DNA of 64,000 nt from a virus: IMG/VR virus record IMGVR_UViG_3300048818_000054, positions 1 to 64,000 of that record. One strand, given 5' to 3'. The notes beneath the pieces were generated by a model. That model did no database searches, had not been told where the DNA came from, and saw nothing but the letters and a program-made list of their open reading frames with translations. Positions 6,567 to 60,306 of this stretch are shown here, piece after piece (position 1 is the stretch's first letter; every line of letters starts with the position of its first letter). The position numbers were made by a program, and so were the translations under genes.

Positions 6567-6580
6567 TGCAACTAGTTGCA
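6567..6580 (-). promoter_or_regulatory. Palindrome TGCAACTAGTTGCA, copy 1
   Basis: Perfect 14-bp palindrome three bases after the stop of the gene at 6583-6843 and upstream of the promoter at 6527-6554. Followed on the minus strand by CAA, as in most copies. Confidence 0.8.
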
Positions 6581-6582
6581 AA

Positions 6583-6843
6583 TCATATCGAGGGATTGCG
6601 GCCAGCGCCTATGTCGCCATCGGTGTAAGTCACGAAGCGCAGCTTGCCGTTGCCGAGCACAAGCGACTTCTGACCCTGATAGCCTTTTGCCAAGAGCGGG
6701 CTTGAAACGAGCACAAGCCAAATCTCCGTCTCGACCAAGCTCTTGCTATGGACACGAATTAGGTCAGAGAAAGGCGGCTCGGCAATCGCGGCCAAGAGGT
6801 TCGGGTGCATTTCAACATGAGCCGTTCCCATGGCGTCCCTCAT
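6583..6843 (-). CDS. Hypothetical protein, 86 aa, last gene of the ExbB-like operon
   Basis: ATG 6843 overlaps the upstream stop (ATGA). Mixed hydrophobic protein with IWLVLVSSPLLAKGYQGQK near its middle and VLGNGKLRFVTYTDGD later; no clear transmembrane helix. Translationally coupled to the membrane-protein operon, and its stop is followed directly by the palindrome at 6567. Function unknown. Confidence 0.7.
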   Translation of the reverse strand: MRDAMGTAHVEMHPNLLAAIAEPPFSDLIRVHSKSLVETEIWLVLVSSPLLAKGYQGQKSLVLGNGKLRFVTYTDGDIGAGRNPSI

Positions 6844-7352
6844 TTGTCTGGCGCTACCCTCACCGTGTTGGGCAGGATCACATAATCGCCGCCCGTGTTC
6901 TCTCCGCCGAAGTGGAGCGTGCCGTAATCGTTGCCGTCGCCTCCCGTGACCTTTGGTATATCGGCCAGTTTCAAGTGAACAGGAATGCCGTCAGCCAAAA
7001 GCTCTCTGGCTTCTGTCAAGAGCTTTTGAAGGGAAGGCGTCAAGTCCACCTTGTAGGCGCGCACTCGACCGTCGCTTGGGAAAACCCACAAGTCAACCTT
7101 CTTCTTCCCATCGGGCCAAAAAGCGACCAACTGAACTTCGTCCGGCATGGCCGCGATTGTCGTCTCTACCGGCAAGCCCATCATAAGCGGCACGCGGAAC
7201 GTAGTCAGGCCGGCAAGGCCAACCAGCAATATAGGCAGCGACAGCTTCGTGTGGACAGGGGCGTTCGTTGTGCGGAAAAGCCACGCGGCGACAAGAGCCA
7301 CCGCAGCCACATACAGACCAAAGGTTGAGACGAACGGTGCGAAGTTGCTCAT
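6840..7352 (-). CDS. Membrane protein with extracytoplasmic or cytoplasmic domain, 170 aa
   Basis: Two transmembrane segments (about residues 10-27, STFGLYVAAVALVAAWLF, and 39-56, LPILLVGLAGLTTF) followed by a soluble domain of about 110 residues with alternating strands (DEVQLVAFWPDGKKKVDLWV). Start ATG overlaps the previous gene's stop (ATGA), and its own stop overlaps the next ATG. Third membrane protein of the ExbB-like operon; it may be an accessory subunit. No family recognised. Confidence 0.75.
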   Translation of the reverse strand: MSNFAPFVSTFGLYVAAVALVAAWLFRTTNAPVHTKLSLPILLVGLAGLTTFRVPLMMGLPVETTIAAMPDEVQLVAFWPDGKKKVDLWVFPSDGRVRAYKVDLTPSLQKLLTEARELLADGIPVHLKLADIPKVTGGDGNDYGTLHFGGENTGGDYVILPNTVRVAPDK

Positions 7353-8038
7353 TTCATGCTTCCCGATGCGTCAAAAACATGGCTCGTGACCAGCATGAGC
7401 GGCGGGTCGGCAAGGGTGCAGTTGCCTTGGTTATCGAGGTCGAAACTGACGACGTTGATGCACTGTTTCTGGTGAACAAGAATGACCTCTTGCGAGAAAA
7501 TCGTCTCCACCTTGGGGTTGAGCTTGATGACCTCCACGCGGACCGGGCATTTCAAGTCGCGGTCATTGTCCGCCACGTCTTGGCCGTTGCGGTGAAACTT
7601 GAACATGTGAACGCCCACGTCGAAGCGACCGGGCAGCTTGCCTCGGATCGTGGTCATTTCCTTTTGGGTAAGGTCGTCAATCTCTGTGCTCTTGCCGTTG
7701 CCCGCGCCGTCGCGGTCGTCAACGAAGTGCTTCGAGTCCACCCAGCCCTTGCAATCGTGGTCAAGGCTGACGCCGTGGGACTCACGGGCGTTGTACCAAA
7801 CGTCGGTCTGACCCGACTTGTCCAAGGAACTGCTGTCGGGGATAATGACGTGCAAATCCACGTCCGCGTCATAGTCCATAGACCACTCTGCGGTGATGAC
7901 GTATTCGGCGGTGATCTTGAGGCCGGCCGCTTGGTCCTTTGGCGCGACCTGATTTATCAGGACGGCTTGCTGGGCGAGCAGATAATCGACAAGCGCAATC
8001 CAGCCTATGCGCTCAAGGAACTGGCGTCGATCAATCAT
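7349..8038 (-). CDS. Membrane-anchored YfaP/DUF2135-like protein
   Basis: 229 residues from ATG 8038, which overlaps the TGA of the ExbB-like gene (ATGA). One N-terminal hydrophobic segment (GWIALVDYLLAQQAVLI, about residues 11-27), then a beta-domain: AEWSMDYDADVDLHVIIPDS, VSLDHDCKGWVDS and later GRFDVGVHMFKFHRNGQD. This follows the DUF2135/YfaP layout (W...DxDLHVxxP...LDxD.xG...G.Y.V.vh.....). The topology of a single N-terminal anchor plus exported domain resembles ExbD/TolR, although the domain differs. Cys200 and Cys209 might form a disulphide. Partner of the upstream channel-like protein by operon position. Confidence 0.7.
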   Translation of the reverse strand: MIDRRQFLERIGWIALVDYLLAQQAVLINQVAPKDQAAGLKITAEYVITAEWSMDYDADVDLHVIIPDSSSLDKSGQTDVWYNARESHGVSLDHDCKGWVDSKHFVDDRDGAGNGKSTEIDDLTQKEMTTIRGKLPGRFDVGVHMFKFHRNGQDVADNDRDLKCPVRVEVIKLNPKVETIFSQEVILVHQKQCINVVSFDLDNQGNCTLADPPLMLVTSHVFDASGSMK

Positions 8039-9114: not shown

Positions 9115-9139
9115 GTCAGTGTTCCTCTTCGAATTGACC

Positions 9140-9167
9140 ACTCTGGCCTATTCAAGGGATTTGTCAA
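9140..9167 (-). promoter_or_regulatory. Possible promoter for the ExbB-like operon
   Basis: Consensus -35 TTGACA (9162-9167) with 16 bp to CAGAGT (9140-9145), a poor -10. It lies at the right distance from the operon's first start (9114). Weak on its own. Confidence 0.3.
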
Positions 9168-13655: not shown

Positions 13656-13673
13656 GGCAACCCCCTTGTGCAA
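13646..13673 (-). promoter_or_regulatory. Promoter with palindrome at -35, TTGCAC-16-TTAACA
   Basis: -35 (13668-13673) is the right half of the palindrome; -10 TTAACA (13646-13651) preceded by GTGC. Weaker -10 than its relatives. Confidence 0.45.
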
Positions 13674-13682
13674 CTAGTTGCA
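13669..13682 (-). promoter_or_regulatory. Palindrome TGCAACTAGTTGCA, copy 2
   Basis: Overlaps the -35 of the promoter at 13646-13673; followed by CAAGG on the minus strand. Protein bound here would block the promoter. Confidence 0.8.
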
Positions 13683-17376: not shown

Positions 17377-17404
17377 ACGATAGCACCTTCGCGACCTTGT
17401 GCAA
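17377..17404 (-). promoter_or_regulatory. Promoter with palindrome at -35, TTGCAC-16-TATCGT
   Basis: -35 (17399-17404) is the right half of the palindrome; -10 at 17377-17382 preceded by GTGC. An ATG (ending after four codons, MIYG) lies six bases past the -10. Confidence 0.65.
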
Positions 17405-17413
17405 CTAGTTGCA
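17400..17413 (-). promoter_or_regulatory. Palindrome TGCAACTAGTTGCA, copy 3
   Basis: Extends to a 16-bp palindrome (17399-17414). Overlaps the -35 box of the promoter at 17377. Confidence 0.8.
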
Positions 17414-18714: not shown

Positions 18715-18728
18715 TGCAACTAGTTGCA
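18715..18728 (-). promoter_or_regulatory. Palindrome TGCAACTAGTTGCA, copy 4
   Basis: 16-bp palindrome 18714-18729. Provides the TAG stop of the gene at 18720-18833 and sits just before the ribosome binding site of the next. No -10 box at the usual distance. Confidence 0.8.
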
Positions 18729-18981: not shown

Positions 18982-20289
18982 TTACAGTTCGTTTGCGTTC
19001 GGCGGGGCCGGTTCGCAATTGATCGACCACTTCGGATACGCCTCGGCGGTCATTTGAAGAATGACTTCCATGGCGTTTTCGCCAAGCAGGACTTGCAGGC
19101 TCTCGAAAACCTGTTGCGCCGACAAGCCGCCAATGCTGATGATCTTCTGACCACCGTTGCCGGCCATGAAATCCATGCAGATATATTCGAGCGCCATCGT
19201 GTCGAATTCGGTCTGGCCGACGATCTTGGCCTTGGCGAGCGCGGCTTTGATGCCGATCTTCTGGTTTTCATGGACCTTGAACGTCATAGTGGTGACGGTC
19301 TTGGCTTCCTGCTCTTCGATCGTGAGAGGCGCGGATGCCGCGAGCGACGCCTTGACCAGTTCGATCAAGGACTGTTTGTTGTTCTTGAGCGCCACTTCCA
19401 CCCAATGATCGACGTTTTCAACCGTGATGATCTTGGAAAGCTCTTTCAGCTTCACCCAGCCGACCATGTTGACTTTCGACCACGGCACCTTGGAATTCGC
19501 CAGATCGTTGTAAATCTGGATATAGTACATCGCCTTGCGATATTCCAACTCATGCTCTTGTTCGATGAATTCGCGGAACGATTTGTATTCGTGCGCGCCG
19601 GCCATCGTGTACCAGCCCTTGGTCTGGACATGGGACAGGACGCCACCGAGGCGTAACCAAGCGACTTCGGCCTCATTCGAGAGCGCGGCGACAAGCGCAA
19701 GGCTCTCTTTCTCGCCCATGTTCTCGATCTCGAACACGATATCGGCAATGAGGTTGTCAACCGGGTCCAAGACTTCTCCGTGTTTCAAGTCTGACACGGC
19801 AACGGCGGTGCCTTTGGCTTTCTTGACGGCAGCCTTCGCGGCCTTGACTTCGGCCTTCGTCGGCGTCTTGGGCAAGTCTTTGCCGGCCGCAATCTCAGCC
19901 TCCGTCAATTCGGGCTTCGGCTGTAAGGCAGGCGCGGCAGCGGTCGAAGGCGCGTCGGGAATGTGAGCGATCGGGTCGGCGGCGGCATTCGCCGTCAAGC
20001 CAGCGCCGGACACTTCGGGTCCGTCAGCTTCGTTGCCTTCGTCGGAAGGGGAAAGGTCGAACGTCTTGAGCGCCCAATCGCGCTTTTCGCCAACCTTCAT
20101 TGTGGACCAGCCATCGGGCGGCGTCGCTTCCTGATCCTGCAACATTTTGTCTAGTTGCTTGGACGTGGCTTTCTTCACGTCTTCGGCGCTCTCGATCTCA
20201 TACGAGGGGGCTTCGGCGGGCGCTTCTGGCTGCTTCAATGTGTCAGTGGCGAGCTTGCCGCCATTCAAAAGATCAAGGGATGCGGACAT
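18982..20289 (-). CDS. Large helical protein, 435 aa, unknown function
   Basis: ATG 20289, Shine-Dalgarno in the loop of the hairpin at 20296. Residues 1-160 are low-complexity, rich in Ala, Pro, Glu and Lys (KAEVKAAKAAVKKAKGTAVA). From about 165 on it is a folded helical domain: WLRLGGVLSHVQTKGWYTMA, FREFIEQEHELEYRKAMYYI, MVGWVKLKELSKIITVENVD. This middle resembles helical domains of phage proteins thought to bind DNA, but I cannot name it. It has its own strong promoter at the end of the recombination cluster. Confidence 0.8.
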   Translation of the reverse strand: MSASLDLLNGGKLATDTLKQPEAPAEAPSYEIESAEDVKKATSKQLDKMLQDQEATPPDGWSTMKVGEKRDWALKTFDLSPSDEGNEADGPEVSGAGLTANAAADPIAHIPDAPSTAAAPALQPKPELTEAEIAAGKDLPKTPTKAEVKAAKAAVKKAKGTAVAVSDLKHGEVLDPVDNLIADIVFEIENMGEKESLALVAALSNEAEVAWLRLGGVLSHVQTKGWYTMAGAHEYKSFREFIEQEHELEYRKAMYYIQIYNDLANSKVPWSKVNMVGWVKLKELSKIITVENVDHWVEVALKNNKQSLIELVKASLAASAPLTIEEQEAKTVTTMTFKVHENQKIGIKAALAKAKIVGQTEFDTMALEYICMDFMAGNGGQKIISIGGLSAQQVFESLQVLLGENAMEVILQMTAEAYPKWSINCEPAPPNANEL

Positions 20290-25317: not shown

Positions 25318-25331
25318 TGCAACTAGTTGCA
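25318..25331 (-). promoter_or_regulatory. Palindrome TGCAACTAGTTGCA, copy 5
   Basis: 16-bp palindrome 25317-25332 in the short gap between the SSB stop and the helicase GTG. Followed by CAAGG. No -10 at the usual distance. Confidence 0.8.
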
Positions 25332-30603: not shown

Positions 30604-31522
30604 CAAGGTCACTGTTCGGGTCTAAAATCTGTGCCATCGTCAGCTTAGACGGTTTCTTGAGATTTGCAACTAGTTGCACGGGGGGTGACGGCGCAGCTTC
30701 GATGACCGGCGTTGAGGCCGGGCCGGCATTCTCGCCATTCACGAATTTGATGGCGTAATGGCGATATGTCGCGAGGAAGGCCACGGTCGGTTGCTGGGGG
30801 TAGGTTTTGAGCCCGGCCTGCTCTTTGACGAACTTTCCGAAGCTGATCCATAAATCCATGACGTGTTTCAATGTGGTGGTCGCGGTGCCGACCGGGCAAG
30901 CGTCAAAGAACAATCGAAGCTGGGCGCTCTGCTTGGCGGTCATGCTCATGATCGGAACATCGAACCAGTGCTTGATTTTTTCCAGCCACGTCAATTCGAG
31001 TAGCTTCGAAGGCTTCATCGGATTGTGCATTTTAGCCACAAGGGCAAGCACGTCTTTGGTTGAATGTCCCACTTCAATCTCTCCGAGAGAATTCTCTGTT
31101 TCTGGTCCAGCCTCCGTTTGCGTGAGCAAGATTTCTTCTTGAATATCTTCTTGAATATCTTCTTGCTCTATGATTGGTCCCTTTAGGGCTATAGCGTTAG
31201 ACCCTATAGGGCCTGCCTCATGTCCCTTTAGGGCCTCACGTGTACGCGACGGAAGCGAATAATGGCCGATAGTTTTGTGGTTGAAAACGGCCATTTTCCA
31301 GTCGATATGGTTCTGCTCTCGTAGCAGCGAAACGGCCCGTTTGATCTGCTTCATCGAACACGCTGTCTCTTCCATCAAGTCGGTATGGGACTGCGGAGTG
31401 GTTGTCTTCCCGTATTTCAACGCGCCTTCGTAAAGGAATTGCAGACGCAAGAGGACGATCGCGGCTACAGGATCGCCGGTCAGGCGGTGTGCGCGGGCTA
31501 GGTAGTTGTCCACTCTTGGCAT
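30590..31522 (-). CDS. Winged-helix replication initiator-like protein, 310 aa
   Basis: ATG 31522 with AAGGA upstream; the frame upstream of it (to 31693) looks non-coding. Residues about 13-95 form a winged helix: HRLTGDPVAAIVLLRLQFLY, HTDLMEETACSMKQIKRAVS, LLREQNHIDWKMAVFNHKTI. A flexible acidic linker (EQEDIQEDIQEEILLTQTEA) leads to a second helical domain (KLLELTWLEKIKHWFDVPIM). Layout is like phage initiators that bind an origin and recruit helicase. It holds palindrome copy 6 in its coding sequence. Confidence 0.65.
   Translation of the reverse strand: MPRVDNYLARAHRLTGDPVAAIVLLRLQFLYEGALKYGKTTTPQSHTDLMEETACSMKQIKRAVSLLREQNHIDWKMAVFNHKTIGHYSLPSRTREALKGHEAGPIGSNAIALKGPIIEQEDIQEDIQEEILLTQTEAGPETENSLGEIEVGHSTKDVLALVAKMHNPMKPSKLLELTWLEKIKHWFDVPIMSMTAKQSAQLRLFFDACPVGTATTTLKHVMDLWISFGKFVKEQAGLKTYPQQPTVAFLATYRHYAIKFVNGENAGPASTPVIEAAPSPPVQLVANLKKPSKLTMAQILDPNSDLDDDD
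30642..30669 (-). promoter_or_regulatory. Internal promoter with palindrome at -35, TTGCAA-16-TAAGCT
   Basis: Inside the 3' end of the initiator-like gene. -35 at 30664-30669 is in the palindrome; -10 at 30642-30647. Would drive the loader-like gene. Confidence 0.5.
30665..30678 (-). promoter_or_regulatory. Palindrome TGCAACTAGTTGCA, copy 6 (in coding sequence)
   Basis: The only copy inside a gene; it encodes part of VQLVAN. Keeping the exact palindrome in coding DNA argues that the site itself is selected. Confidence 0.8.
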
Positions 31523-32549: not shown

Positions 32550-32577
32550 AACATACGCTCTCGCGCGCCTATGTCAA
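32550..32577 (-). promoter_or_regulatory. Promoter, TTGACA-16-TATGTT
   Basis: -35 at 32572-32577 within the last codons of the AAA+ gene; -10 at 32550-32555. Confidence 0.7.
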
Positions 32578-33801: not shown

Positions 33802-33829
33802 ACGATAGACGAACGCCTGCCGATTGCAA
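33802..33829 (-). promoter_or_regulatory. Promoter with palindrome at -35, TTGCAA-16-TATCGT
   Basis: -35 at 33824-33829 in the palindrome; -10 at 33802-33807. CGTCTATCGT around the -10 is shared with promoters 14128 and 20326. Confidence 0.7.
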
Positions 33830-33838
33830 CTAGTTGCA
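33825..33838 (-). promoter_or_regulatory. Palindrome TGCAACTAGTTGCA, copy 7
   Basis: Overlaps the -35 of the promoter for the AAA+ ATPase gene. Confidence 0.8.
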
Positions 33839-35253: not shown

Positions 35254-36929
35254 GCTCGGTACCTTCCATCCGCCAATGTGACGATCGTGCGCTTGCCGCT
35301 CTGGTAAGTGACGATCTCCGCGTGATGCCACGCGCCCGGTCCCTTCGAGGCGTATCGAAGGTCAAGCCTTGAGGACGTGCCCGCGATATAGGCTCCGTCT
35401 CTGATTTGCGGCTCATGCGTGTGAGCGGTGTTCATGCGTTCGACAAGCTTTGCCATGCCCATGGGCGAGCCGCGCGTGCCACGCGGGCCTTTGTCGCCGT
35501 GCAGCCCACATTCGATTGGCGCGGTGTCCTGACAGACAAGATAGGAGTTGCCGGGGTTGAGGAAGCGGACGCCTTCGAGGTCGCTACCGGAGTTCCGCAG
35601 CCCGAAGATATGGGCTTGGAACTCTTCTCCGTCGCCGTCTTCAATCGCCTTAAACCACGCGGCGTTCAATTCGTGCCAAATGCGCGCGTTGCCGGGATCG
35701 TAATGGCCGGCCGTGTCCTTGAGCCACGTATCGAGCATGGCATTGTGGTTCGATGCGACGTGAACCGAAGTTGACCAGTCGCGCATGGTCGCGCGAAGGA
35801 AATGCGCCGTGTTGACGAACATGTTTCGAACGCTGTCCTGCTTCTCCGATCGTATCAAGGCGTTTTCGTGCGGGTCGCGGATAGTGTGATGCCCGCGCGC
35901 CTTCATCGAAAAGCTGTCGTGAAAGAACTGGTGCTTGGGTTTCAAATCATCGAGCATCGAGCTACCACCGGGACCGATACTTGGGCCGCACGCAACCGGC
36001 GTCCAACCCCACAGCACCTTGGCAACGTCCATGTCGAGTTCTTCGTAATGCACGTCGCCCCAAGTAATCGCTTCGACGGGCGGGCCGGGCATGACCTCGC
36101 CATCCTTCACGAACACGTCAAGGTCTTGGAATGAGCCGTCTTTGCCGAAAGATATCTGGCGCAGAAAGAACACGCCATCGGGCCGTATCTCCGCGATGGT
36201 CGCGCCGGGAGTGTGGTGGAACTCGGCCTTCTGGCCGGCATTCTTCTGGACATAGTTCGGCTTCGTGATGACGCCTGTGGTCATGATTTGCTTGCCGGGC
36301 CGGCCGGGCATAACCGGGACGCTCTTCAAAGCGATCTTGGCATGTGGGAACACGGCCCAATGGTCGCGGGTGTTGGTTTCCCAGCCGGTGAGGGGATCGA
36401 CGGCGGTAGGAAGGATGTTCGCCTTGCCAAACCACGTCAGCTTGGGCGCGAGGTCCACCACTTCGGGGCGCAACAATTTCTCGATCCTTTGCGAGAAATG
36501 GCCGGTATCGACCATGTGCTCTTCGAAGAGGCCCTTCTGATAGGTGAAGCCGCCGACTATGACCTCTCCGTCGCGCTGGGCGGCGTATGCCTGTAGATTG
36601 TTCAGGGCGGCCTCATACGTGCCAGTTTCGTCTTGGGCGGCGGTCATCAAGACCACGCGTACTTTGGCTGGGCGGGCTTCTACGGTCATCTTTGGCAGCA
36701 AAATCTTGGTCTTGGTACCGGCCTTCAAGGCGTGAGCGTCTGCCGTGGTGGTTGCATCCTTCGGCGGGAGCAAGCCTTGCGCTCGCATCCTGACGACGTG
36801 CTGGAAAAACGTGGCGCGCTTGACGTGCATCAACTTGCTGGCAGCTTCGACATTGCCCTTGGTTTTTGCCAAGTTTGCGCGGGCGCGTTCGACATATTCG
36901 GACGCGAAGACAATCAGGGAAGCGCTCAT
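35250..36929 (-). CDS. Calcineurin-like phosphoesterase with N-terminal HTH, 559 aa
   Basis: ATG 36929 (upstream 15 codons lack a ribosome binding site). Residues 20-60 form an HTH (VEAASKLMHVKRATFFQHVV). The rest has metallophosphoesterase motifs in order: TWGDVHYEELD (GDxH), FFHDSFSMKARGHH, HVASNHNAMLDTWL (GNH[DE]-like, with S for G), and MNTAHTHEPQIR (GHTH-like). No family match beyond the fold. Could be a nuclease or a phosphatase; phage T5 A1 is of similar length, but I cannot establish homology. Confidence 0.65.
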   Translation of the reverse strand: MSASLIVFASEYVERARANLAKTKGNVEAASKLMHVKRATFFQHVVRMRAQGLLPPKDATTTADAHALKAGTKTKILLPKMTVEARPAKVRVVLMTAAQDETGTYEAALNNLQAYAAQRDGEVIVGGFTYQKGLFEEHMVDTGHFSQRIEKLLRPEVVDLAPKLTWFGKANILPTAVDPLTGWETNTRDHWAVFPHAKIALKSVPVMPGRPGKQIMTTGVITKPNYVQKNAGQKAEFHHTPGATIAEIRPDGVFFLRQISFGKDGSFQDLDVFVKDGEVMPGPPVEAITWGDVHYEELDMDVAKVLWGWTPVACGPSIGPGGSSMLDDLKPKHQFFHDSFSMKARGHHTIRDPHENALIRSEKQDSVRNMFVNTAHFLRATMRDWSTSVHVASNHNAMLDTWLKDTAGHYDPGNARIWHELNAAWFKAIEDGDGEEFQAHIFGLRNSGSDLEGVRFLNPGNSYLVCQDTAPIECGLHGDKGPRGTRGSPMGMAKLVERMNTAHTHEPQIRDGAYIAGTSSRLDLRYASKGPGAWHHAEIVTYQSGKRTIVTLADGRYRA

Positions 36930-36939
36930 GGGGAATGCC

Positions 36940-37374
36940 TCATGGTTCGCCGTGCTTTGAGCACAGTTCGGCACGCGCTTCGTCTCTACCTTGCTGTCGG
37001 GCGTGTTCCAACTCGATCCGATGTTCTGATCGAGCTAGGGTTTCGGCAACATTAGTGGCAAGGGCGCGCGCCGAGGCAGCTTCGGAAAGTATCTGATCCA
37101 GTCGAGCGGTAGCCCGCGTCTGCGCGCTGCTCATAAATTCCATCAACTCGCGAAGCCGGGAAAGGACTTCGGCAATTTGCGCGGCCATTAGGCCGAAGCC
37201 TGCGCTCTGAGCGGTCGGATCGACGGCAAGCGAAGTCGCTACCGCGCCACGGATGCGCTTGTAATAGCCCCAAACTCCAACGGCGGTGACGGCAACAGCC
37301 ATTCCGAAATTGGCATAGGCTTGAAGCGAGCCAGAAAACATATTTGCCACGTCTGGCCCCGCGCCTTCCATCAT
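36940..37374 (-). CDS. Single-span membrane protein with coiled coil, 144 aa
   Basis: ATG 37374 overlaps the upstream stop (ATGA). Transmembrane segment about residues 20-38 (YANFGMAVAVTAVGVWGYYK), then a long helix (LSRLRELMEFMSSAQTRATA, LATNVAETLARSEHRIELEH). In the lysis cluster; it could be a holin accessory protein. Function not established. Confidence 0.7.
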   Translation of the reverse strand: MMEGAGPDVANMFSGSLQAYANFGMAVAVTAVGVWGYYKRIRGAVATSLAVDPTAQSAGFGLMAAQIAEVLSRLRELMEFMSSAQTRATARLDQILSEAASARALATNVAETLARSEHRIELEHARQQGRDEARAELCSKHGEP

Positions 37375-38531: not shown

Positions 38532-38687
38532 TCACTTGACCCCGGACGGGTGAGGAAGGTGTGACGGTTTGGTCGGCCGTAACGGCGGCATACGGTGAAC
38601 CGGTGCCGTCGCCATCACATGCGGAATAGGCTTTGCCGACGCGCGGGCTTGCGCTTGAATATGAGCGATAGGCTCGATTTTCATCAT
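38532..38687 (-). CDS. Hypothetical proline/histidine-rich peptide, 51 aa
   Basis: ATG 38687 (second ATG 38684) overlaps the endolysin stop; TGA 38532 abuts the i-spanin start. MMKIEPIAHIQAQARASAKP, then MATAPVHRMPPLRPTKPSHL. No transmembrane segment. Bridges endolysin and i-spanin. Function unknown. Confidence 0.55.
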   Translation of the reverse strand: MMKIEPIAHIQAQARASAKPIPHVMATAPVHRMPPLRPTKPSHLPHPSGVK

Positions 38688-39607
38688 GCAGCCTTTGCGA
38701 GTGGAACTACAGGCGTCGGCGGGACGTTATCATTAACGGCCACAATTGGGAAGGGTCCATCGGCGTCAGGGTTAACAGGCTTCTTGAGCGCGCCCGCAGC
38801 GGCAGCGGCCGTCGCATCTGACCCGTATTTGAAGATGAAGCCGGCAATCGCTCCAAGCATCGTAAGCCCTACTAGAATATAGGTAATCCAGTGATGGTCG
38901 CCGCCGATAGACTGCAATTGCGGAACGGTTGCGGTGACGATTGTGCCCACCGATCCCGAGGCGGTGACAACGTGCGTGACAATCGGATTGACGGCGGGTT
39001 GGACCATATTATCGTCCACTTCCGCCTTCTGATGACCGCCTGCCGAGGTAACGTCAACTGGCATTGGCGCTGTCGCGGCGTTCGACCAAGCGTCGGCAGT
39101 CTTCTTGCCGTTGGCGATGCGTGCGGCCCAGCCCTTGCCGAACTCTGGCCATGTGGCAAGGCGCTCAAGCGTGCCAAGGCGGTGCTGACAAAAGCTGTCG
39201 ATCAAGCCGTCGATATCGTTGACGGCGGCGAGCGCGGCCATGGTCTTCGGACCAAGATCGCCGTCCGCCTGACCGGTGTAGCCGTCCATCGCCTGTTGAA
39301 GCCATATGGTAGCGCGGCCGACGCCCGAGTTGACCGAGGCGTCAAAGAACGCAAAGTCGAGCCCGATCGGGAAAGCATCGCATTGCCCACGGTCCCAATA
39401 CTGCGTCTTGTAAATCTCCGCGACCTCGGCGTCCGTGATCGAATAAACGTCGATCAAAGCCTCGTCGCGCTGCTGCCGCCAAGAATTGTAAGTGCGCTGC
39501 GTGATGCCATTGTTCGTCCGACCGCCGGGGTCTTTCGGGTTGTCAACCTTGCCTCCCTCGTAAACGAGAATGCGGGGCAATGATCGAACAAAATCAGCTT
39601 GGGACAC
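38684..39607 (-). CDS. Endolysin, GH108 type with C-terminal membrane segment
   Basis: 307 residues from GTG 39607 with AAGGAGG upstream; the TTG at 39631 is rejected because it lies in the palindrome. LVYEGGKVDNPKDPGGRTNN then GIT is the GH108 catalytic segment with Glu (EGG). DAFPIGLDFAFFDASVNSGV, AAIWLQQ-like and ADGDLGPKTMAALAAVND (PG_binding_3) follow. About residue 245-265 (WITYILVGLTMLGAIAGFIF) is a transmembrane helix, which is unusual; this may be a membrane-held endolysin. Hydrolyses peptidoglycan at lysis. Confidence 0.85.
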   Translation of the reverse strand: MSQADFVRSLPRILVYEGGKVDNPKDPGGRTNNGITQRTYNSWRQQRDEALIDVYSITDAEVAEIYKTQYWDRGQCDAFPIGLDFAFFDASVNSGVGRATIWLQQAMDGYTGQADGDLGPKTMAALAAVNDIDGLIDSFCQHRLGTLERLATWPEFGKGWAARIANGKKTADAWSNAATAPMPVDVTSAGGHQKAEVDDNMVQPAVNPIVTHVVTASGSVGTIVTATVPQLQSIGGDHHWITYILVGLTMLGAIAGFIFKYGSDATAAAAAGALKKPVNPDADGPFPIVAVNDNVPPTPVVPLAKAA

Positions 39608-39626: not shown

Positions 39627-39640
39627 TGCAACTAGTTGCA
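39627..39640 (-). promoter_or_regulatory. Palindrome TGCAACTAGTTGCA, copy 8
   Basis: Between the fibre gene stop and the endolysin start. Followed by CAC on the minus strand. No -10 at the usual distance, so it may act on passing transcription. Confidence 0.8.
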
Positions 39641-41250: not shown

Positions 41251-43269
41251 TCACGCGGCGTCTCCCGTCAAAATCCACTCATCCGTGCCCATCTTCGTGA
41301 GCGCGAGCACGGAGAATTGCGCGCGGGTGTTCAGCGAAGTCAAGGCATTATCGATCGTCACGCCGATGCCCGCCGCAACCGAAAGCTGCCCCACACCCAT
41401 CTGGTCCACGATGATTGAGCAGCCAATGTCAAAAGCGACCGAGCTATTGGGCGGGACGGTGAAGGTCAAAGCCGTCGCCTTATTGCCGCGAACCCACGTA
41501 TTCTCGTCTCCAAGGACGAAGATGTAGTTGGCCGTCTGCGACGTGATGGTGACGTTCGCGCTGGGTAGAGCCTTCGCTTCCCATTTCGTCGCACCGTTAT
41601 TCCAGTAGAGCACGAAACCATCAATGCCCGAGCCGGGCGTAACCGACACGTCGAAGAGATATTGAAGACCGGGAGTACCGGCAACCCATTTCGAAGTTCC
41701 ATTGTTCCATTGGAGGAAATCGCCGTTGATGCCCGATCCTTCCGTGACATTCACGTCGATAAGAGCGGCAAGGGTGGTGACCAGCGTAGGCTTGCCGGTC
41801 AAATCCGAATAGGCCCCCGTGATGGCGACGGTCGCTAACGTTGGCACCGTTAGCGTGCAATCCCATGTGTCCGTCCCGGATTTTATGAGGCGTGCGATCG
41901 TGTAGCGCGCGAGCATCACAAGCCCGGCCGGCGCGTTGATGGTGACGCCGCCAGTCGCAACGATGGTGGTTATGCCGGCCCCGATTTGCTGCACGTCGAT
42001 AACCGTGCCGATGGGATATGGGACCGAAGAGTTCAGGGGGACCGTGAGGTTGTTTGCCGAGGCGTTGCTCATGGTGATAAGCGCGCCTTCGTCAGCAATG
42101 ACGGTCGTGTAGCTTACGGTCTGGGCATTGACGCTGGTATAAACCGGGCCTTCGTCCGCACCGCTTGCGCCCGACAAAGTGGCCTGCCAAACGTTCGTCC
42201 CGACCTTGAACAAGGTGGCGACCGAATATTGACCGCCAAAGGTCAAGTCGCTGTCCTCTGAGTGAATAGTCACGCCCACGCCGGCCACAAGCGTTGTGAC
42301 GCCAGCCCCGGACTGCCCGACGTAAAGTATGGTCCCAATCGGGAAGGCGACCGAGCTATTCGGGGGAACCACGCAATTGTTGGCGCTCGCGTCGAACATG
42401 TCCACGAAGGTTGAAGCGTCGCTAATCGCCAACGTGTAATTCGAGGTTTGTTGATTGTAGCCGAGGATGCCGGGGATCGTGGGAGCCCACGCCGCGCCGT
42501 TCCACGCAAGCACCTTGCCGGTAGCGAGGCCGGTATAGGTCACGTCGGCAACGGAGGACAGCGCCGCCACGACCACGGACGGGCTCTTGGCCTCCCATTT
42601 CGAGGCTCCGTTGTTCCAATAGAGCACGTACCCGTCGATCCCGGCACCTTCCGTCACGGTCACGTCGGTAAGAGCGGCGAGCGTCGTTATGAGGGCTTTC
42701 GCCTCCCACGTTGAGGCTCCATTATTCCAGTAGAGCACCTTGCCGTCGATACCCGCTCCTTCGGTCACCGTAACGTCGGTCAAAGCCGCAAGCGTGGTGG
42801 TGGCCGAGGGCAGCGTCTCAGGCGTCCATTTGGACGTTCCGCTCTCCCACATGAGGACTTGCCCATTGGTAGGCGAGGTCGCGGCAACATTCGTCAAGTC
42901 GTCAAGCACGGTCGGCGTGCCGCTCGCGTCCGTGGTCCAATAGCCGCCACCCGAGCCCTGATAGGTGATGAAGGTGCTCGTATAGGCGTCATACATGCGG
43001 AGCTTGAGCGGCGGCGTGACGAACTGCCAACCGTTGTAATAGAACGTCAAGGTGCCCTGAAGCTGCCCAGCCCACGCGCCAGTAGGAGAAGACCCTATAA
43101 TGTAGGCGTCCCCTTCGGCCGGCGAGCCGGGCGGCGTGTTCATACCGTTTTCCAGCACCGATCCACGGAACACCGCGTCGATCAAAACCATGGCGGTGTT
43201 GAAGACGGCTTCCTTCTGCGCTTGGCTTGTCGTCATCAAGCCGATGCCTAGGATAGGAGTAAAGCTCAT
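41251..43269 (-). CDS. Tail fibre with DUF2793 N-terminus and tandem repeats, 672 aa
   Basis: ATG overlaps the upstream stop (ATGA). Residues 1-115 match DUF2793 (SFTPILGIGLMTTSQAQKEA, PPGSPAEGDAYIIGSSPTGA, W-Q-F-V-T-P-P), which joins fibres to the tail. Then at least five copies of a motif like LTDVTVTEGAGIDGYVLYWN with GASKWEAK, and three copies of a beta-domain (TLAISDASTFVDMFDASANN ... GTNVWQATLSG). The same modules are in the left fibre cluster 1-2651. Confidence 0.85.
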   Translation of the reverse strand: MSFTPILGIGLMTTSQAQKEAVFNTAMVLIDAVFRGSVLENGMNTPPGSPAEGDAYIIGSSPTGAWAGQLQGTLTFYYNGWQFVTPPLKLRMYDAYTSTFITYQGSGGGYWTTDASGTPTVLDDLTNVAATSPTNGQVLMWESGTSKWTPETLPSATTTLAALTDVTVTEGAGIDGKVLYWNNGASTWEAKALITTLAALTDVTVTEGAGIDGYVLYWNNGASKWEAKSPSVVVAALSSVADVTYTGLATGKVLAWNGAAWAPTIPGILGYNQQTSNYTLAISDASTFVDMFDASANNCVVPPNSSVAFPIGTILYVGQSGAGVTTLVAGVGVTIHSEDSDLTFGGQYSVATLFKVGTNVWQATLSGASGADEGPVYTSVNAQTVSYTTVIADEGALITMSNASANNLTVPLNSSVPYPIGTVIDVQQIGAGITTIVATGGVTINAPAGLVMLARYTIARLIKSGTDTWDCTLTVPTLATVAITGAYSDLTGKPTLVTTLAALIDVNVTEGSGINGDFLQWNNGTSKWVAGTPGLQYLFDVSVTPGSGIDGFVLYWNNGATKWEAKALPSANVTITSQTANYIFVLGDENTWVRGNKATALTFTVPPNSSVAFDIGCSIIVDQMGVGQLSVAAGIGVTIDNALTSLNTRAQFSVLALTKMGTDEWILTGDAA

Positions 43270-45944
43270 GGCACTTGTATCCCGATTGGAAAGCCTCGAC
43301 CGACTTTCTGGCTGATCTGGTAAATCACAAGGTAGACTTCGGCGGGCGGGCTGACGACGCTATAGTCAGCCTCCTGATCCGCATGGGTGTAATCCCAAGT
43401 GTAGCCGAGCGCGCCGACCGATGGCACAAGCGGATAGGTGTTTAGCACGGTACCGTTGGGCGCGGATAGCACGTCCACCGAATAGGTCTCCGGAAGGTCA
43501 TTGGCCGGCAAGGTGATATCCCCACCCGACAGCCATTGTCCGTTCTGGCGCGTGCGCGGAACCCAAGCCACCGTGATATCGCCGTTGGTAGCCCTGAATT
43601 TTTGCGTCACATGGACCGTATAGGGCCTGAAGCTGTTGCCGGTATCGCTGAAGGTGAAGCTGATCTGGTCGGCCGCGTTCGAATTGATCGAAACGTCGTG
43701 GAACGTATCGGTCTGATTGAGGTCGGCAAGCGTCGTGATGACCCGATTATATCCCTCGGTGACGCGAACGAAGTCCTCGCCCGTTACGTGCGTGTCCATC
43801 AAGCGCTCGGTGCCGCGCAGTCCGCGCATGAAGGTCGTCAGACGAAACAGGCCGTTTCCTAGATTTTGGGCGTTGGCGAACTGGACAAGCTCTTGGCCTA
43901 TGAAGGTCACGTTCAGAGCTTGGAAAAGAAGATCGCTTTCGGTAGCAGAAACCAAACCCATCCCGTTGATAATGCGGACAACAATGCTGCTCTCACGGTC
44001 CCAATAGCAAGGGTTCATGCCGGGCGCTAGGGCGTCCAAGGCGACACCGTGGGGAACATTGACTTGAGACGTGGCAATGCCCTGCCACGCGGAGCCTGAC
44101 GAAGGATTGATTATGTCCTGACCATAGGCTTGCGAGACGGACGGCGCGGCAGCGTCAACGAACAGCGTCCCGCCCTGCCACTGAATGCGTGAACCGGCGA
44201 GGATGACGTAAAATCCCGGAACGTCGGCGTCTGAGTCAGTCAGCAACGGGCAGTCATAGAGGTAGCTAAAGGTTGACGACGTGCCGGGGAGCACGGTCGC
44301 TCCAGCGCCCGATCCTGACGATATATCGACGCCCACGGTCTGCGACGGGTTGACGGACGGGTCCACATAATAGTGGTCCACGAACTGCGCCTTTATCAGG
44401 CCGTTAGCCCCCACTTCAAGTTGCGTGCAAAGGTACTCGTCGAACAATTCCGTGTTGTACTTGTTCTGAACTTTCACAACGTCGGTAGGCTCCAACGTGA
44501 TGTATTTGCGAGGCAATTGAATGCTGATGATCTTACGCGCGAACATGCGATTGGCGAGCATTTGAATAACAGCGCCTTGCGCGTCAGCACGATCAAGAGC
44601 TATCGTCAAATCCACCTTTTCGATCAAGGTTGAAGGCGTATTGTAGCGCGCGGCGTAGAGTTCGTTGGGCGAGTAATTCCGCGCTGGCTCCTGATATTTC
44701 AAATCTATGCGCTGCGGAAGGTCATAGTCCGACGTGCGCTGAATTTGCTCGCGGACCGGCAACGGGTCGGTATCGGCGTGCGCGCCAAAGTCGCCTCGCT
44801 GAAGGATTTGCGACGCACGGACATTGACCTCTCCAAACACGATTTTATAGCCGCTCTCCGCGCCATTGATCGGGAAAACCTTCTGAAGGTCTTGCAGGAT
44901 TTGGCGGGCGCTCGTAACCGTGGTCACGCAAAAGCCGGGGAAAATCGTGTCCGTAAAGTTGAATTGGAACTGCTCGACCGTGAGGCCGGCCTGAAGGCAA
45001 ATGCCCTGCATAACGTCAATGAGCGTGGTCGTGCCGCCCGGCGTGGTTTGGACTTCGGCCGTGATGCTTGGGACGTTGTTTCCGAAGTCCATAAGCTGAA
45101 GGTTCGTGATGACGAAATAGCAGCAATTGCGGAAGGCGGGCGCATTGCCCGCGCCGAGATAGCCTTCGAGCAAGCCGTTGGGGGCCTGTTCGTCATCGCC
45201 AAGGTAGACCTCGATAAGGTCGAACCGGTTGATTTGCTGCTCGTACTGATCCTGATTGTTCAGTCCGGAATAAAGCTGAGAGATAACATTCGTCACGCCA
45301 GCGCTGTCCGGGTAGAGGATGGCGTCAAAAATGCCCCCAGGGTCGGCCGGGGCTTCATCCACGATCGGATGCGCCATGATGTAGCCCACGGCGTCGGCCG
45401 GCGAAGAAAGCGTAACTTCGGTCGTGTCGAAATTGTTGAACGCGAACACGAAAGCACTCGCGGCGGCATAGTCCAGCGACACACCTTCTTCGTCAATTAG
45501 ACGGGTCGCTTCGGACTGATAGGCGGCGTCGAAAGCTTGGTTCGAAGTAGCGGCCACGATCGGATTGACATAGAGCAGCTTTTGGTTAGCCCAGACGCGG
45601 TTCAACTGGTAAACCGGTCCGGCGCAGACGCCCCAAGCGCCGTCAACCGAGTACGTGAAGGTGTAGTTCTTGACGGCGTTGCCCGTCAGCATTCCCTTGC
45701 CGCCCCCGCCCTTCTTGCTGGCCTGATGGGTGTGCATGGTCTCGATAAGCTCTGACGCGAAGATCATTTGCGTGGGGAGCTTCATGGTGCCCCACACCTG
45801 AATAATCGGCTGGCCGGGCGATACCGACGTGACGTTGATATCGGACAGGCGCGAGCCATAGGTGTCCGGCTTCTTCGGCGTGAAAAGCGCCGTAAGCAAC
45901 ATCCCGCCAAGACTGACGACAAGGCCGACAAGGAGCATAGCCAT
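43266..45944 (-). CDS. Tail tip / central fibre protein, J-like (Phage-tail_3)
   Basis: 892 residues; starts MAMLLVGLVVSLGGMLLTAL (hydrophobic N-terminus), then IIQVWGTMKLPTQMIFASEL. The region around VTTVTSARQILQDLQKVFPI and DYDLPQRIDLKYQEPARNYS is typical of the Phage-tail_3 domain of tail-tip attachment proteins. The C-terminus has fibronectin-like strands (TYSVDVLSAPNGTVLNTYPL). Follows the NlpC/P60 gene as in GTA-like tails. Contacts the host surface and the fibres. Confidence 0.8.
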   Translation of the reverse strand: MAMLLVGLVVSLGGMLLTALFTPKKPDTYGSRLSDINVTSVSPGQPIIQVWGTMKLPTQMIFASELIETMHTHQASKKGGGGKGMLTGNAVKNYTFTYSVDGAWGVCAGPVYQLNRVWANQKLLYVNPIVAATSNQAFDAAYQSEATRLIDEEGVSLDYAAASAFVFAFNNFDTTEVTLSSPADAVGYIMAHPIVDEAPADPGGIFDAILYPDSAGVTNVISQLYSGLNNQDQYEQQINRFDLIEVYLGDDEQAPNGLLEGYLGAGNAPAFRNCCYFVITNLQLMDFGNNVPSITAEVQTTPGGTTTLIDVMQGICLQAGLTVEQFQFNFTDTIFPGFCVTTVTSARQILQDLQKVFPINGAESGYKIVFGEVNVRASQILQRGDFGAHADTDPLPVREQIQRTSDYDLPQRIDLKYQEPARNYSPNELYAARYNTPSTLIEKVDLTIALDRADAQGAVIQMLANRMFARKIISIQLPRKYITLEPTDVVKVQNKYNTELFDEYLCTQLEVGANGLIKAQFVDHYYVDPSVNPSQTVGVDISSGSGAGATVLPGTSSTFSYLYDCPLLTDSDADVPGFYVILAGSRIQWQGGTLFVDAAAPSVSQAYGQDIINPSSGSAWQGIATSQVNVPHGVALDALAPGMNPCYWDRESSIVVRIINGMGLVSATESDLLFQALNVTFIGQELVQFANAQNLGNGLFRLTTFMRGLRGTERLMDTHVTGEDFVRVTEGYNRVITTLADLNQTDTFHDVSINSNAADQISFTFSDTGNSFRPYTVHVTQKFRATNGDITVAWVPRTRQNGQWLSGGDITLPANDLPETYSVDVLSAPNGTVLNTYPLVPSVGALGYTWDYTHADQEADYSVVSPPAEVYLVIYQISQKVGRGFPIGIQVP

Positions 45945-55505: not shown

Positions 55506-55921
55506 AGCCTTGGGCGTGCCTTCGGTATCGCGGCCTCGGCCGCAGCCTTTCGTTTTGCGTCCTCATTCCCGGCGTTATCACATTCCGCGTTCACCGCGTC
55601 TATGATCCGAAAAAGCTCGGCCGCCTTGTTCGACTGATCCATCACCGAGCCGATTTGCGGAAGGTGACCCGATTTATAGAACCCGTAATACAAGAACATC
55701 TGATGCCATTGCATCGGACGTGCCTTGAGGTCTTGGCGAGGGCACGCATAAGTGTCCTCTCCATCGATCTTGACCGGAAGGAAGGCTGGATTTACCCAGC
55801 CAACCCATCCGCCTTTTCCGTCCGGCCTAGCGCCATCGTCACCCTTTTTGAGAGGGTAGCTGTAGGCGGTGCAGCCCCATTCCTTTTGGCGCGTGCAGCC
55901 GTTGCATTGCCGTTCCGGCAT
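55502..55921 (-). CDS. Tail assembly chaperone, downstream ORF (frameshift partner)
   Basis: 139 residues from its own ATG 55921 (TAATG with the upstream ORF), but the frame is also open upstream to the slippery A_AAA_AAA, so the main product may be a 311-residue -1 frameshift fusion. CNGCTRQKEWGCTAYSYPLK and TYACPRQDLKARPMQWHQMF show CxxC...C...C. Position just before the tape measure gene is diagnostic for the gpGT-type partner that recruits tail tube subunits to the tape measure. Confidence 0.75.
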   Translation of the reverse strand: MPERQCNGCTRQKEWGCTAYSYPLKKGDDGARPDGKGGWVGWVNPAFLPVKIDGEDTYACPRQDLKARPMQWHQMFLYYGFYKSGHLPQIGSVMDQSNKAAELFRIIDAVNAECDNAGNEDAKRKAAAEAAIPKARPRL

Positions 55922-56436
55922 TAAGCGGATGGCGGCGATGCCTCGACGGATTTTTTTTCTTCAGCGGCGGTGACCTCGCTGATGTTTTTGATTTGCTGGG
56001 CAAGCTCCTGAATGAGGCGCACGCCCATCGTGTTCATGATCGCATCGGCCACCACGTCATAAGGCCGGCCGTTGACGACGGCGCGCTGAGTGGAGAACGA
56101 AAGAGCGTTGCCCTTGGCGTCGGCAAAGTTCGTGAAGCCGATCAAGCCATGGCGAACGGCTTCGATGTTCGTCTGATTGACCTTGGTATGAATTCCATAT
56201 TCGGTCGATCCCTCTTTGCCCGAAAGCGTTGAGGCGTTATCGTAAATCAGGCCCATCAAGAACACGTCAAGGCCGCGCAGCTTGAAGCTGGTCGCGCCTT
56301 CTTTGATCTCCACATGCTCTGTGAAGCCCTTCGTGCTGTCGGCCGGATCGTTGGGGGTTTTCGTCTTGACCTTGGACGGGTCCATATCGGAAACATAGTC
56401 CAAGCTGTCGGCGGTTGTCATCGCAATTAGGGCCAC
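55921..56436 (-). CDS. Tail assembly chaperone, upstream ORF (gpG-like)
   Basis: 171 residues from GTG 56436 with GGAGG upstream. FTEHVEIKEGATSFKLRGLD, VFLMGLIYDNASTLSGKEGS, then RPYDVVADAIMNTMGVRLIQ and a short charged tail (VTAAEEKKSVEASPPSA) in which the slippery run lies nine codons before the stop. This is the short, abundant form of the chaperone pair. Acts during tail assembly and is not in the finished virion in related phages. Confidence 0.75.
   Translation of the reverse strand: MALIAMTTADSLDYVSDMDPSKVKTKTPNDPADSTKGFTEHVEIKEGATSFKLRGLDVFLMGLIYDNASTLSGKEGSTEYGIHTKVNQTNIEAVRHGLIGFTNFADAKGNALSFSTQRAVVNGRPYDVVADAIMNTMGVRLIQELAQQIKNISEVTAAEEKKSVEASPPSA
55951..55957 (-). other. Programmed -1 frameshift site A_AAA_AAA
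   Basis: Minus strand codons GAA-AAA-AAA-TCC form a perfect X_XXY_YYZ heptamer. Eight bases downstream a GGCAT/ATGCC stem with a 16-nt loop could stimulate slipping. After a -1 shift the frame runs straight into the ORF at 55502-55921. Confidence 0.75.
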
Positions 56437-56487
56437 GGCTGCCTCCTTGGCTGTATGGCGTTATCGATCCCGGACGCTCGCACTTTG

Positions 56488-56501
56488 TGCAACTAGTTGC
56501 A
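56488..56501 (-). promoter_or_regulatory. Palindrome TGCAACTAGTTGCA, copy 9
   Basis: One base after the stop of the gene at 56503, 51 bp before the chaperone start. Followed by CAAAG. No -10 seen. Confidence 0.8.
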
Positions 56502-56502
56502 A

Positions 56503-56721: not shown

Positions 56722-56728
56722 GACGTTG

Positions 56729-56746: not shown

Positions 56747-56749
56747 TCC

Positions 56750-58372: not shown

Positions 58373-58411
58373 GGTTCAATTCCCTTGTTTTGGTTTCACC
58401 GATGACCGGCC

Positions 58412-60244
58412 TTAGAACTGCGACGCGACAACGTGAAGGCCCGTGCCCCAAGTGTCGCCCGCCAGAGCGGTGACGCGCGCGGCCAAGGTCGCCATGGCAT
58501 TCGAGATTGCCACTTGGATAGTCGCGGCCAAGGTGTTCTGAACGCCACTCGCGCCGGTCGCGCCGGGATTGGTCGCGGCTACGGCGGCGTTGTCGGTCGT
58601 CACAACGTCGTGGATGGCGACAGTCGCGGCCGGCAAGACGCCGCCCGAGTTGTCGATCAAAGGCTGCAAGCCCGTGGTGCCGCCCACGTCGCCAAGGACA
58701 GCGTTCAACTGAGAGGCCATATAGGCGATGTTCGCCGTAACGGCCGCCAGAGTGGCGTTCCAAGTCGTGAGCGAAGCGCCGAGGGCAGCCGCGCCAGTCG
58801 TGGTCCCGCCGAGCACGCCCGAGCCGTCGAACACTTCCGAGTGCGTAGACGTGTTCGTGAAGACCAGCGAGTTGCCGCCGACGCCATCGACCAAGGCCGT
58901 GACGCTGAAGGTCGCGCCGCCACCCGCGTTCGGGACAAGCGAGGCAACCACCGTGTCTGGAACCGCCGTGTTCGGGACATAGACGCCCGCGCTGATGCCC
59001 GCCAAGCCGCGAACGGTCGAGGCCATCGAGGCGATAACGTCGGCCATGGTGGCAGCGAAGCCGGCCGCCGTGTTGGCGCGCACCTGAATTTGGCCGGGCG
59101 TGGTGCCAAGCGTCGTGATGAAGCTGAACGATTGATTGCCAATCGTCATAATGTCGCCGTTGATGAAGTTGGTAGTGGTGGCTTCCGTGATGGTGCCCAC
59201 GGCCTTGATGCCGGCCGCAACCGCGACCGTGGAGGCTTCGGACGCAAGCGTGGTCGAAACCGTCCCGCCGATGTTGTCCACCAGCGCGGCGAGATCGTTC
59301 TTCTCGCGATAGAGGTTGATCTTGGCGAGGATCGAAGAAAGCGCGTTCTGGTAGGCGTCAATGAGCGTGTTCGTGCCCGCCGTGGGGAGCGAAGCGCCGG
59401 ACACGTCCTGATAGCCGACCGGAGCCACAACCGCGACCTCGGCGATGGTGAGGACGCCCGAAGCGCCGCCCGTGCTGTCGGTGAGGGTGCCGGGCGTCGC
59501 GCCTTGCGTGAAGAATTCATTGTAGGCGCTGGCGAGAGAGGCGAAGTTATTCGCGACGGCGGCCAAGAACGCGGTGCCATCGGCCAAGAGAACCGAGTCC
59601 GAACCGGTCGCGCTGTCCACGGCGGCGGGGATAAGCCCGATGACCTTGGAGAGGTTCACTTCGCTGCCGAACGCATTGGCGATGACGGGCGCGCCGATGG
59701 CGGCCAAGCACTGGTTCATGCCGAACATGAGGTTGTACTGCGCGTTCATGATCGCATCGGCCTGCGCCACATACGAGGCGTAGCTGACGGCCAGAGCGCC
59801 CGCGCCGGTCGTGCAGGACAAGTCCTGAGCAACGATGGTCCCGAAGGTGCCGAGCGAGCCTTCCGCGTACTGAAGGTTCGCGACGCCGAGGCGGGCCAGC
59901 ATGTTATTGATGACCGAAACCCAGCCCTGAATGGCGTTGCGCGTCTTGGCAACGGAGGTCGTGAGGGCCGTGGTAAGGACGCCGCCCGCCGACACGGCGT
60001 TATAGACGCCCGTGGGGGCAATGAGGTTGACCAGCGGTAGCGCGCCGTCGCCGCCCATGGTGGGGGGGATGGCTGCGGTGCCCGTCGTGCTGTCGGTCAC
60101 GGCGCTGACGGCGGCGACCTGAAGTTTGGCAATGGCGTTGTCGATCGCGAGGCCACGGACAATGGCGGCAAGACCGTCAACCTCTCGGCTGGCGACTTTG
60201 GACTCGCCCGAGAACTGGGCGCGCTTGACAAAAACTGCGGTCAT
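58412..60244 (-). CDS. Large alanine-rich virion protein, 610 aa
   Basis: ATG 60244 with AGAGG upstream; the frame above it to 60307 crosses the palindrome. MTAVFVKRAQFSGESKVASR, then helices with many Ala/Val. Residues about 370-490 carry a copy of the inserted domain (ATTTNFINGDIMTIGNQSFS ... GVGGNSLVFTNTSTHSEVFD). No homolog recognised. By position (between tail terminator and tail tube) it is structural. Confidence 0.75.
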   Translation of the reverse strand: MTAVFVKRAQFSGESKVASREVDGLAAIVRGLAIDNAIAKLQVAAVSAVTDSTTGTAAIPPTMGGDGALPLVNLIAPTGVYNAVSAGGVLTTALTTSVAKTRNAIQGWVSVINNMLARLGVANLQYAEGSLGTFGTIVAQDLSCTTGAGALAVSYASYVAQADAIMNAQYNLMFGMNQCLAAIGAPVIANAFGSEVNLSKVIGLIPAAVDSATGSDSVLLADGTAFLAAVANNFASLASAYNEFFTQGATPGTLTDSTGGASGVLTIAEVAVVAPVGYQDVSGASLPTAGTNTLIDAYQNALSSILAKINLYREKNDLAALVDNIGGTVSTTLASEASTVAVAAGIKAVGTITEATTTNFINGDIMTIGNQSFSFITTLGTTPGQIQVRANTAAGFAATMADVIASMASTVRGLAGISAGVYVPNTAVPDTVVASLVPNAGGGATFSVTALVDGVGGNSLVFTNTSTHSEVFDGSGVLGGTTTGAAALGASLTTWNATLAAVTANIAYMASQLNAVLGDVGGTTGLQPLIDNSGGVLPAATVAIHDVVTTDNAAVAATNPGATGASGVQNTLAATIQVAISNAMATLAARVTALAGDTWGTGLHVVASQF

Positions 60245-60292
60245 GATGGTATTCCTCTGGTACGTGCCGGGGATGCCGACTTGTGGTTCTGC

Positions 60293-60306
60293 TGCAACTA
60301 GTTGCA
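60293..60306 (-). promoter_or_regulatory. Palindrome TGCAACTAGTTGCA, copy 10
   Basis: In the 106-bp gap before the 610-residue virion protein, 49 bp before its ATG. A small hairpin GGCCA-TTG-TGGCC (60319-60331) followed by TTAAAT lies upstream and could be a weak terminator. Confidence 0.8.

Follow-up and report, generated by a model that had tools for sequence, protein, structure and literature searches.

What does a short palindrome do when it is repeated, letter for letter, along the genome of a virus? The question is raised by a 64-kb stretch of DNA (the window, bases 1-64000 of the 99,945-bp IMG/VR record IMGVR_UViG_3300048818_000054, hereafter G000), in which the 14-mer TGCAACTAGTTGCA occurs ten times without change. 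Comparison with a clade of related phages and phage-plasmids establishes, by computation, the array itself, its symmetry, its clade-wide conservation, the selection acting on it, its variant half-sites and its recurring positions. Its copies most likely serve as docking sites for a DNA-binding protein, made by the phage, through which the genome is controlled.

A palindromic array shared by a phage clade

All ten coordinates listed in an earlier note on this sequence were confirmed, and four further exact copies lie beyond the window (66485, 73759, 90807 and 96923), bringing the total in G000 to 14, each a perfect palindrome. A trinucleotide model predicts about 0.00004 copies per 64 kb and about 0.00006 per 100 kb by chance, and no copies with one to three mismatches were found in the window. 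Genes were called with our own simple caller, which returned about 140, nearly all of them on the minus strand. By these calls, nine of the ten sites in the window lie at gene boundaries, as had been noted earlier, and the one at 30665 is intragenic; the site at 18715 overlaps only one doubtful call of 37 amino acids. For the motif TGCAA-N4-TTGCA, 13 of the 15 occurrences in G000 are intergenic, against 1.5 expected.

Judged by major capsid protein and DNA polymerase, Rhodobacter phage RcZahn (68% and 56% identity) is among the nearest named relatives. A megablast search of positions 1-25000 of the window against named phages gave no match. The other nearest named relatives are Rhizobium phages RHph_Y1_11 and TM16, the Stenotrophomonas Delepquintavirus phages DLP5, DLP3 and Summit, Agrobacterium phage JP1 and Vibrio phages including VH2_2019, SIO-2 and VHS1; going by these relatives, we guess that G000 infects an alphaproteobacterium. 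Plasmid p7 of Rhizobium bangladeshense (NZ_CP071625.1, 109 kb, annotated as 'non-mobilizable') carries capsid, protease, tape measure and DNA polymerase genes and is a phage-plasmid of the clade. Two of the Stenotrophomonas phages, DLP3 and DLP5, have a temperate life style, the latter having been isolated as a phagemid (PMC7326821). The clade as a whole comprises phages and phage-plasmids of roughly 80-110 kb, and as many of the contigs are related, counts across genomes are not independent.

Each relative examined has its own version of the site, built on a common core, TGCA-N6-TGCA. Exact TGCAACTAGTTGCA is missing from RcZahn, Y1_11 and DLP5, each of which has its own version instead. Across 16 clade genomes a spacer of six alone is enriched: it gives 408 sites, where the fourteen other spacers average 18, and in an unbiased search for inverted 5-mers TGCAA-N4-TTGCA came out top or joint top in nearly all clade genomes. 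Most members hold about 5 to 55 copies; TGCA-N6-TGCA occurs 27 times in RcZahn, 38 in DLP5, 35 in JP1, 48 in contig G029, 26 in KarBoss and 53 in p7 (with 42 TGCAA-N4-TTGCA, their centres mostly GC-rich), and 34, 9 and 6 times in the Vibrio members VH2_2019, SIO-2 and VHS1. The centres are phage-specific, being CTAG in G000, TCAA in DLP5, ACGT in JP1 and CGCG in p7. The DLP5 version, TGCAATCAATTGCA, is present 26 times with both orientations counted, and a literature search for this 14-mer found nothing; that of JP1, TGCAAACGTTTGCA, occurs 23 times and is found in environmental contigs too, and the Rhizobium phages have TGCAACAAATTGCA or TGCAACATATTGCA.

The half-sites have also diversified. 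An uncharacterised protein family of the clade, phrog_17202, used as the sole bait, retrieved 39 IMG/VR contigs, in which 648 TGCA-N6-TGCA were counted in sum against 21 reversed controls. Among the contigs without TGCA sites, four keep the geometry with altered half-sites, namely GGCA, TGAA, GGAA and TCCA, and three or four others show nothing clear. Contig G066 has GGCAAT-N2-ATTGCC (58 GCAAT-N2-ATTGC, mostly GG-armed, one of them at the protease gene), G067 has seven copies of TGAAATTAATTTCA, one upstream of its phrog_17202 gene, G060 carries the variant GGAAAT-N2-ATTTCC, and G056, the sole contig with C at half-site position 2, has ten TCCAA-N4-TTGGA.

Selection, position and orientation of the sites

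Over 95% of the genome, DLP5 and Summit agree at 90% of bases. Every one of the 30 sites that could be aligned is the same in both at 14 of 14 bases, whereas only 37% of random 14-mers are, and 22 of the 30 lie in coding DNA; this is strong evidence from sequence comparison that the sites function at the DNA level. Between TM16 and Y1_11 (73% identity), the arms are kept at most alignable sites and the centre varies.

The earlier note had named a lack of conservation at matching positions in close relatives as grounds for giving up the idea of an operator; the opposite was found. When one arm mismatch is permitted, 10 of 11 genomes, SIO-2 and G000 (66485) among them, have a site in the roughly 100 bp that precede the capsid maturation protease gene, and so does p7. 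The site at 30665 and its counterpart in the DLP5 orthologue share the same offset, 835 bp from the gene start, with different centres, and a site recurs at offset 674 of an epimerase gene in four phages.

Neither random placement nor random gene starts would produce spacing as even as that of the sites. Judged per genome, evenness is strong in DLP5, Summit, JP1, G029 and G030 (coefficient of variation 0.45-0.55, 0 of 2000 simulations) and weak in G000 (p=0.08); a combined p takes in near-duplicate genomes and is not to be taken at face value. About two thirds of the DLP5 sites are intragenic. In JP1, elements resembling a -10 box occur just upstream of sites (13 against 4.6 expected), which places the sites near +1, and other sites, assessed by eye, directly follow stop codons or precede terminator-like hairpins. 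The suggestion that the right half of the palindrome serves as a -35 box found no support: a -10-like hexamer stands at that distance from 2 of the 13 intergenic G000 sites, with 0.7 expected, and relatives show no enrichment.

As to direction, the continuation with CAA that had been reported is indeed seen at six of the ten sites, but the orientation with transcription drawn from it is not consistent, and the sites are symmetric. Where the centre is asymmetric, both orientations are about equally frequent in G066 (19:20), VH2 (9:11) and p7 (10:8), and one is preferred in RcZahn, JP1 and Y1_11; a consistent orientation with transcription, holding for some phages only, was rejected as a general rule. 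From the balance in G066, VH2 and p7 it appears that the duplex is recognised and not one strand. On this symmetry we rejected an RNA hairpin, UGCAA-N4-UUGCA, that would affect translation or RNA processing. Such a hairpin would suit the many sites preceded by a stop codon and followed by a Shine-Dalgarno sequence, but it is the least probable explanation of all, given a half-site conserved across genes with no covariation within the stem.

A candidate binding protein and its competitors

On the explanation that we favour, and to which as a whole we give about an even chance, the palindrome is the G000 version of a clade-wide operator, TGCA-N6-TGCA, and, the half-sites lying one helical turn apart, a phage-encoded helix-turn-helix protein probably binds it in the form of a symmetric dimer. 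A member of phrog_17202 would occupy about 15 sites in G000 and up to about 55 in relatives, near promoters as well as between or inside genes, and its occupancy would silence or throttle transcription of a one-directional genome, for instance in the plasmid-prophage state of temperate members. That the sites are bound by some phage-encoded protein is very probable. That the binder belongs to phrog_17202 is slightly favoured, and for silencing or roadblocking as the function the scales are evenly poised; this function fits best because of the placement of the JP1 sites, the sites after stop codons and at hairpins, the intragenic sites and the even spacing.

The earlier note suggested a repressor outside the window, yet the best candidate regulator is encoded inside it, at 18982-20289. 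Most protein families that the clade shares serve replication, recombination or the virion; phrog_17202 is an uncharacterised one. It is found in every clade genome but the fragment G031, and the near-identical contig G033 has it. In 31 of 62 members, where 5-8 would be expected, the 200 bp preceding its gene contain an operator. Often, by distances taken by eye, this operator stands 7-8 bp upstream of a -35 element that resembles TTGAC. An AlphaFold2 model built from 46 sequences is all-helical (pLDDT, the predicted local distance difference test, 86); helices 74-82 and 86-102 form a predicted helix-turn-helix, the second starting at a near-invariant Y-R-K-A-x-Y. In G056, with TCCA half-sites, Ser replaces the Arg of R-K-A, making it one of the few members without that residue, and in G066, with GGCA half-sites, T-I stands in place of K-A.

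Several observations weigh against this explanation. Some contigs with phrog_17202 (G052, G061 and G054) have no recognisable array, and counts are low, as given above, in VHS1 and SIO-2 from the Vibrio group. The phrog_17202 promoter of G000 has no operator, nor do those of about half of the family. R-K-A is retained in G067 and G060 despite their changed half-sites, while JP1 keeps TGCA sites and departs from the conserved Arg-Lys in our alignment; the association between half-site and R-K-A is modest (Fisher p=0.015) and comes from few, related genomes. A Foldseek search of the fold against PDB gave no match, and no genome of the clade has an identified lysogeny repressor. VHS1 (JF713456) and SIO-2 (HQ316604), which have far fewer sites than VH2_2019 and KarBoss, also lack a gene for a ParB_N-domain protein; their array is possibly decaying in connection with a more lytic life style.

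A broader proposal, which we advance tentatively and would sooner doubt than hold, is that of a hitherto undescribed control system acting genome-wide in this large clade, in which phrog_17202, a dimeric helix-turn-helix protein of a new family, would act as repressor, transcription roadblock and nucleoid or partition protein together on evenly spaced operators diversified to TGCA, GGCA, TGAA, GGAA and TCCA.

The main rival to silencing, a rather improbable one, is a dispersed centromere or genome-organising array comparable to ParB, Noc or KorB, in which protein at each site condenses, segregates or packages the phage-plasmid, with only secondary effects on transcription. Its loader could be the ParB_N-domain protein encoded at G000 86403-87272 (L072:6403-7272, minus strand), two genes upstream of the large terminase in a neighbourhood common to the clade, or phrog_17202 itself. 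The significantly even spacing in five genomes, the intragenic majority of DLP5 sites and the resident plasmid p7 are in keeping with it, as are a ParB_N protein in 14 of 17 genomes and the viral structure matches of phrog_17202, which at weak scores include DUF3102 and Spo0J/ParB-like proteins. However, SIO-2 and VHS1 have TGCA-N6-TGCA sites and no ParB_N homologue, in Pfam no more than the N-terminal domain of the ParB_N protein is seen, with no helix-turn-helix, sites return at particular promoters, which is what regulation would lead one to expect, and the evenness in G000 alone is weak. The ParB_N protein was rejected as the binder on its absence from SIO-2 and VHS1; it had seemed perfectly correlated with the sites until the core was relaxed to TGCA-N6-TGCA. 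In three phages an operator lies within the ParB_N gene, near its 3' end.

Less probable is a binder that times lytic genes, as an activator or in a mixed role, instead of silencing in lysogeny. Sites at the phrog_17202 promoters, centred about 50 bp upstream of the transcription start, would touch RNA polymerase, the distance to the TTGAC-like element recurs in many phages, and the Vibrio-group phages described as lytic retain sites; most sites nevertheless have no nearby promoter, many are intragenic, and those of JP1 near +1 suit repression. Slightly lower still do we rate another phage protein as the binder, for example the XRE-type protein at G000 90453-90788 (L072:10453-10788, minus strand), which has an HTH_3 domain and orthologues in RcZahn, RHph_Y1_11 and TM16, and whose gene is preceded by a site at a distance of 19 bp. 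No homologue of it was found in DLP5, JP1 or the Vibrio phages, all of which have the array, and being confined to four genomes it was rejected. A clade-wide family of 110 amino acids, 23585, annotated as unknown, was also discarded, its sequence giving no hint of a helix-turn-helix.

The site of a host regulator exploited by the phage, the other possibility raised in the earlier note, is very improbable. The 14-mer does occur in bacterial genomes, though the occurrences are scattered only; it is hard to square one host protein with a geometry that recurs, with altered half-sites as well as phage-specific centres, in phages whose hosts fall into five genera (Rhodobacter, Rhizobium, Agrobacterium, Stenotrophomonas and Vibrio) and two proteobacterial classes.

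Table 1. Operator copies in the window and the gene of the proposed operator-binding protein
Feature	Position	Strand	Remarks
Operator copy 1	6567..6580	.	Exact palindrome; preceding stop 3 bp before
Operator copy 2	13669..13682	.	Exact palindrome; immediately past a hairpin resembling a terminator (hairpin judged by eye)
Operator copy 3	17400..17413	.	Exact palindrome; intergenic
Operator copy 4	18715..18728	.	Exact palindrome; intergenic, start codon 17 bp on
Operator copy 5	25318..25331	.	In a 34-bp gap between a single-stranded-DNA-binding-like gene and a helicase gene (phrogs; RcZahn annotation)
Operator copy 6	30665..30678	.	Intragenic, gene 30590-31513
Operator copy 7	33825..33838	.	Upstream of AAA-ATPase gene 32569-33777; JP1 orthologue also has an upstream site
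Operator copy 8	39627..39640	.	Upstream of endolysin-like gene 38684-39607 (phrogs)
Operator copy 9	56488..56501	.	Upstream of 55921-56436; orthologues in RcZahn and JP1 likewise have upstream sites
Operator copy 10	60293..60306	.	Exact palindrome; intergenic
Proposed operator-binding protein, phrog_17202, 435 amino acids	18982..20289	-	Predicted helix-turn-helix; conserved YRKAMYY segment begins second helix

The same genome encodes a T5 A1-like DNA transfer protein (phrog_1745) and a tail protein like that of gene transfer agents (window 35250-36974 and 43266-45944, both on the minus strand). Fragments from other metagenomes (L025, L069) match G000 with 99.96-100% identity, which places this phage in several samples. 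Scans with variant 14-mers returned mostly single copies by chance. A distant homologue of G000, contig G001 (IMGVR 3300009702_000028), has eight exact copies of TGCAACTAGTTGCA and six of a promoter-like 12-mer, CTTGACAAAACT, sometimes 7 bp downstream of the palindrome. Contigs G002, G004, G006 and G007 have exact TGCAACTAGTTGCA and no detectable homologue of G000 proteins; in G002-G007 (L040, L041, L022, L044, L058) the palindrome adjoins a repeated GTGCAAAGTTC motif followed by a -10-like sequence, and these are probably phage promoters of another group that share it by chance. Many Streptomyces genomes (L089 onward) have a single TGCAACTAGTTGCA each, possibly the conserved site of an unrelated host regulator.

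Relation to known systems and significance

The earlier note compared the palindromes to the stoperators of mycobacteriophage L5. In L5 and its Cluster A relatives, the genome of a temperate phage carries more than 20 short sites, located at promoters or in small gaps between genes, the site varies between related phages, and one lies upstream of the gene of the repressor itself (PMC9283540, PMC6550527). The array in G000 and its relatives is likewise made up of many dispersed short sites, found at promoters and in short intergenic gaps. However, the L5 sites are asymmetric and 13 bp long, point in the direction of transcription and are occupied by the repressor gp71 as a monomer (PMC9283540, PMC6550527), whereas those of the clade are 14-bp dyads without consistent orientation (undefined in the symmetric G000 site) and often intragenic in relatives, and the candidate protein comes from a different, uncharacterised family. 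It has no Pfam or PDB relative, and homology to gp71 was not searched for directly. The comparison therefore carries over in part: a dispersed, operator- or stoperator-like array used by a phage regulator fits, and the array appears to resemble L5 stoperators in its working, but membership of the L5 type fails because the sites are symmetric and not consistently oriented.

The nearest match in architecture is Corndog (Cluster O), with 34 invariant dyad sites of 17 bp, TGTTCGG-N3-CCGAACA, both intergenic and intragenic (PMC4351075). Like the sites of the clade, these are dispersed and dyad-symmetric, though half-site and spacing are different, the phage is actinobacterial and not obviously temperate, and no binder is known. 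The two repeats are not the same, the top inverted repeat of the clade being TGCA-N6-TGCA or its variants instead.

KorB of RK2, Noc and ParB/parS also use dispersed short palindromes, bound by dimers that a plasmid or chromosome encodes. The clade differs in that not every member with sites also has its ParB_N protein, and this protein shows no helix-turn-helix. KorB is reported to silence genes over distance (PMC11790492). The start-associated sequences (SAS) of Cluster K are repeats tied to translation starts (PMC4351075); some clade sites are similarly close upstream of start codons, but many are intragenic or far from starts.

The stoperator idea, hitherto mainly a mycobacteriophage curiosity, is extended to phages and phage-plasmids of Proteobacteria that form a widespread clade, with the addition of dyad symmetry, even spacing, measurable selection, a concrete candidate protein and natural specificity variants. 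Corndog's similar unexplained repeats are open to the same approach. The array can be used for recognising members of the clade and predicting immunity groups, and it offers a route to asking how these phages, including DLP3 and DLP5, which have been proposed for therapy, keep lysogeny without a recognised repressor.

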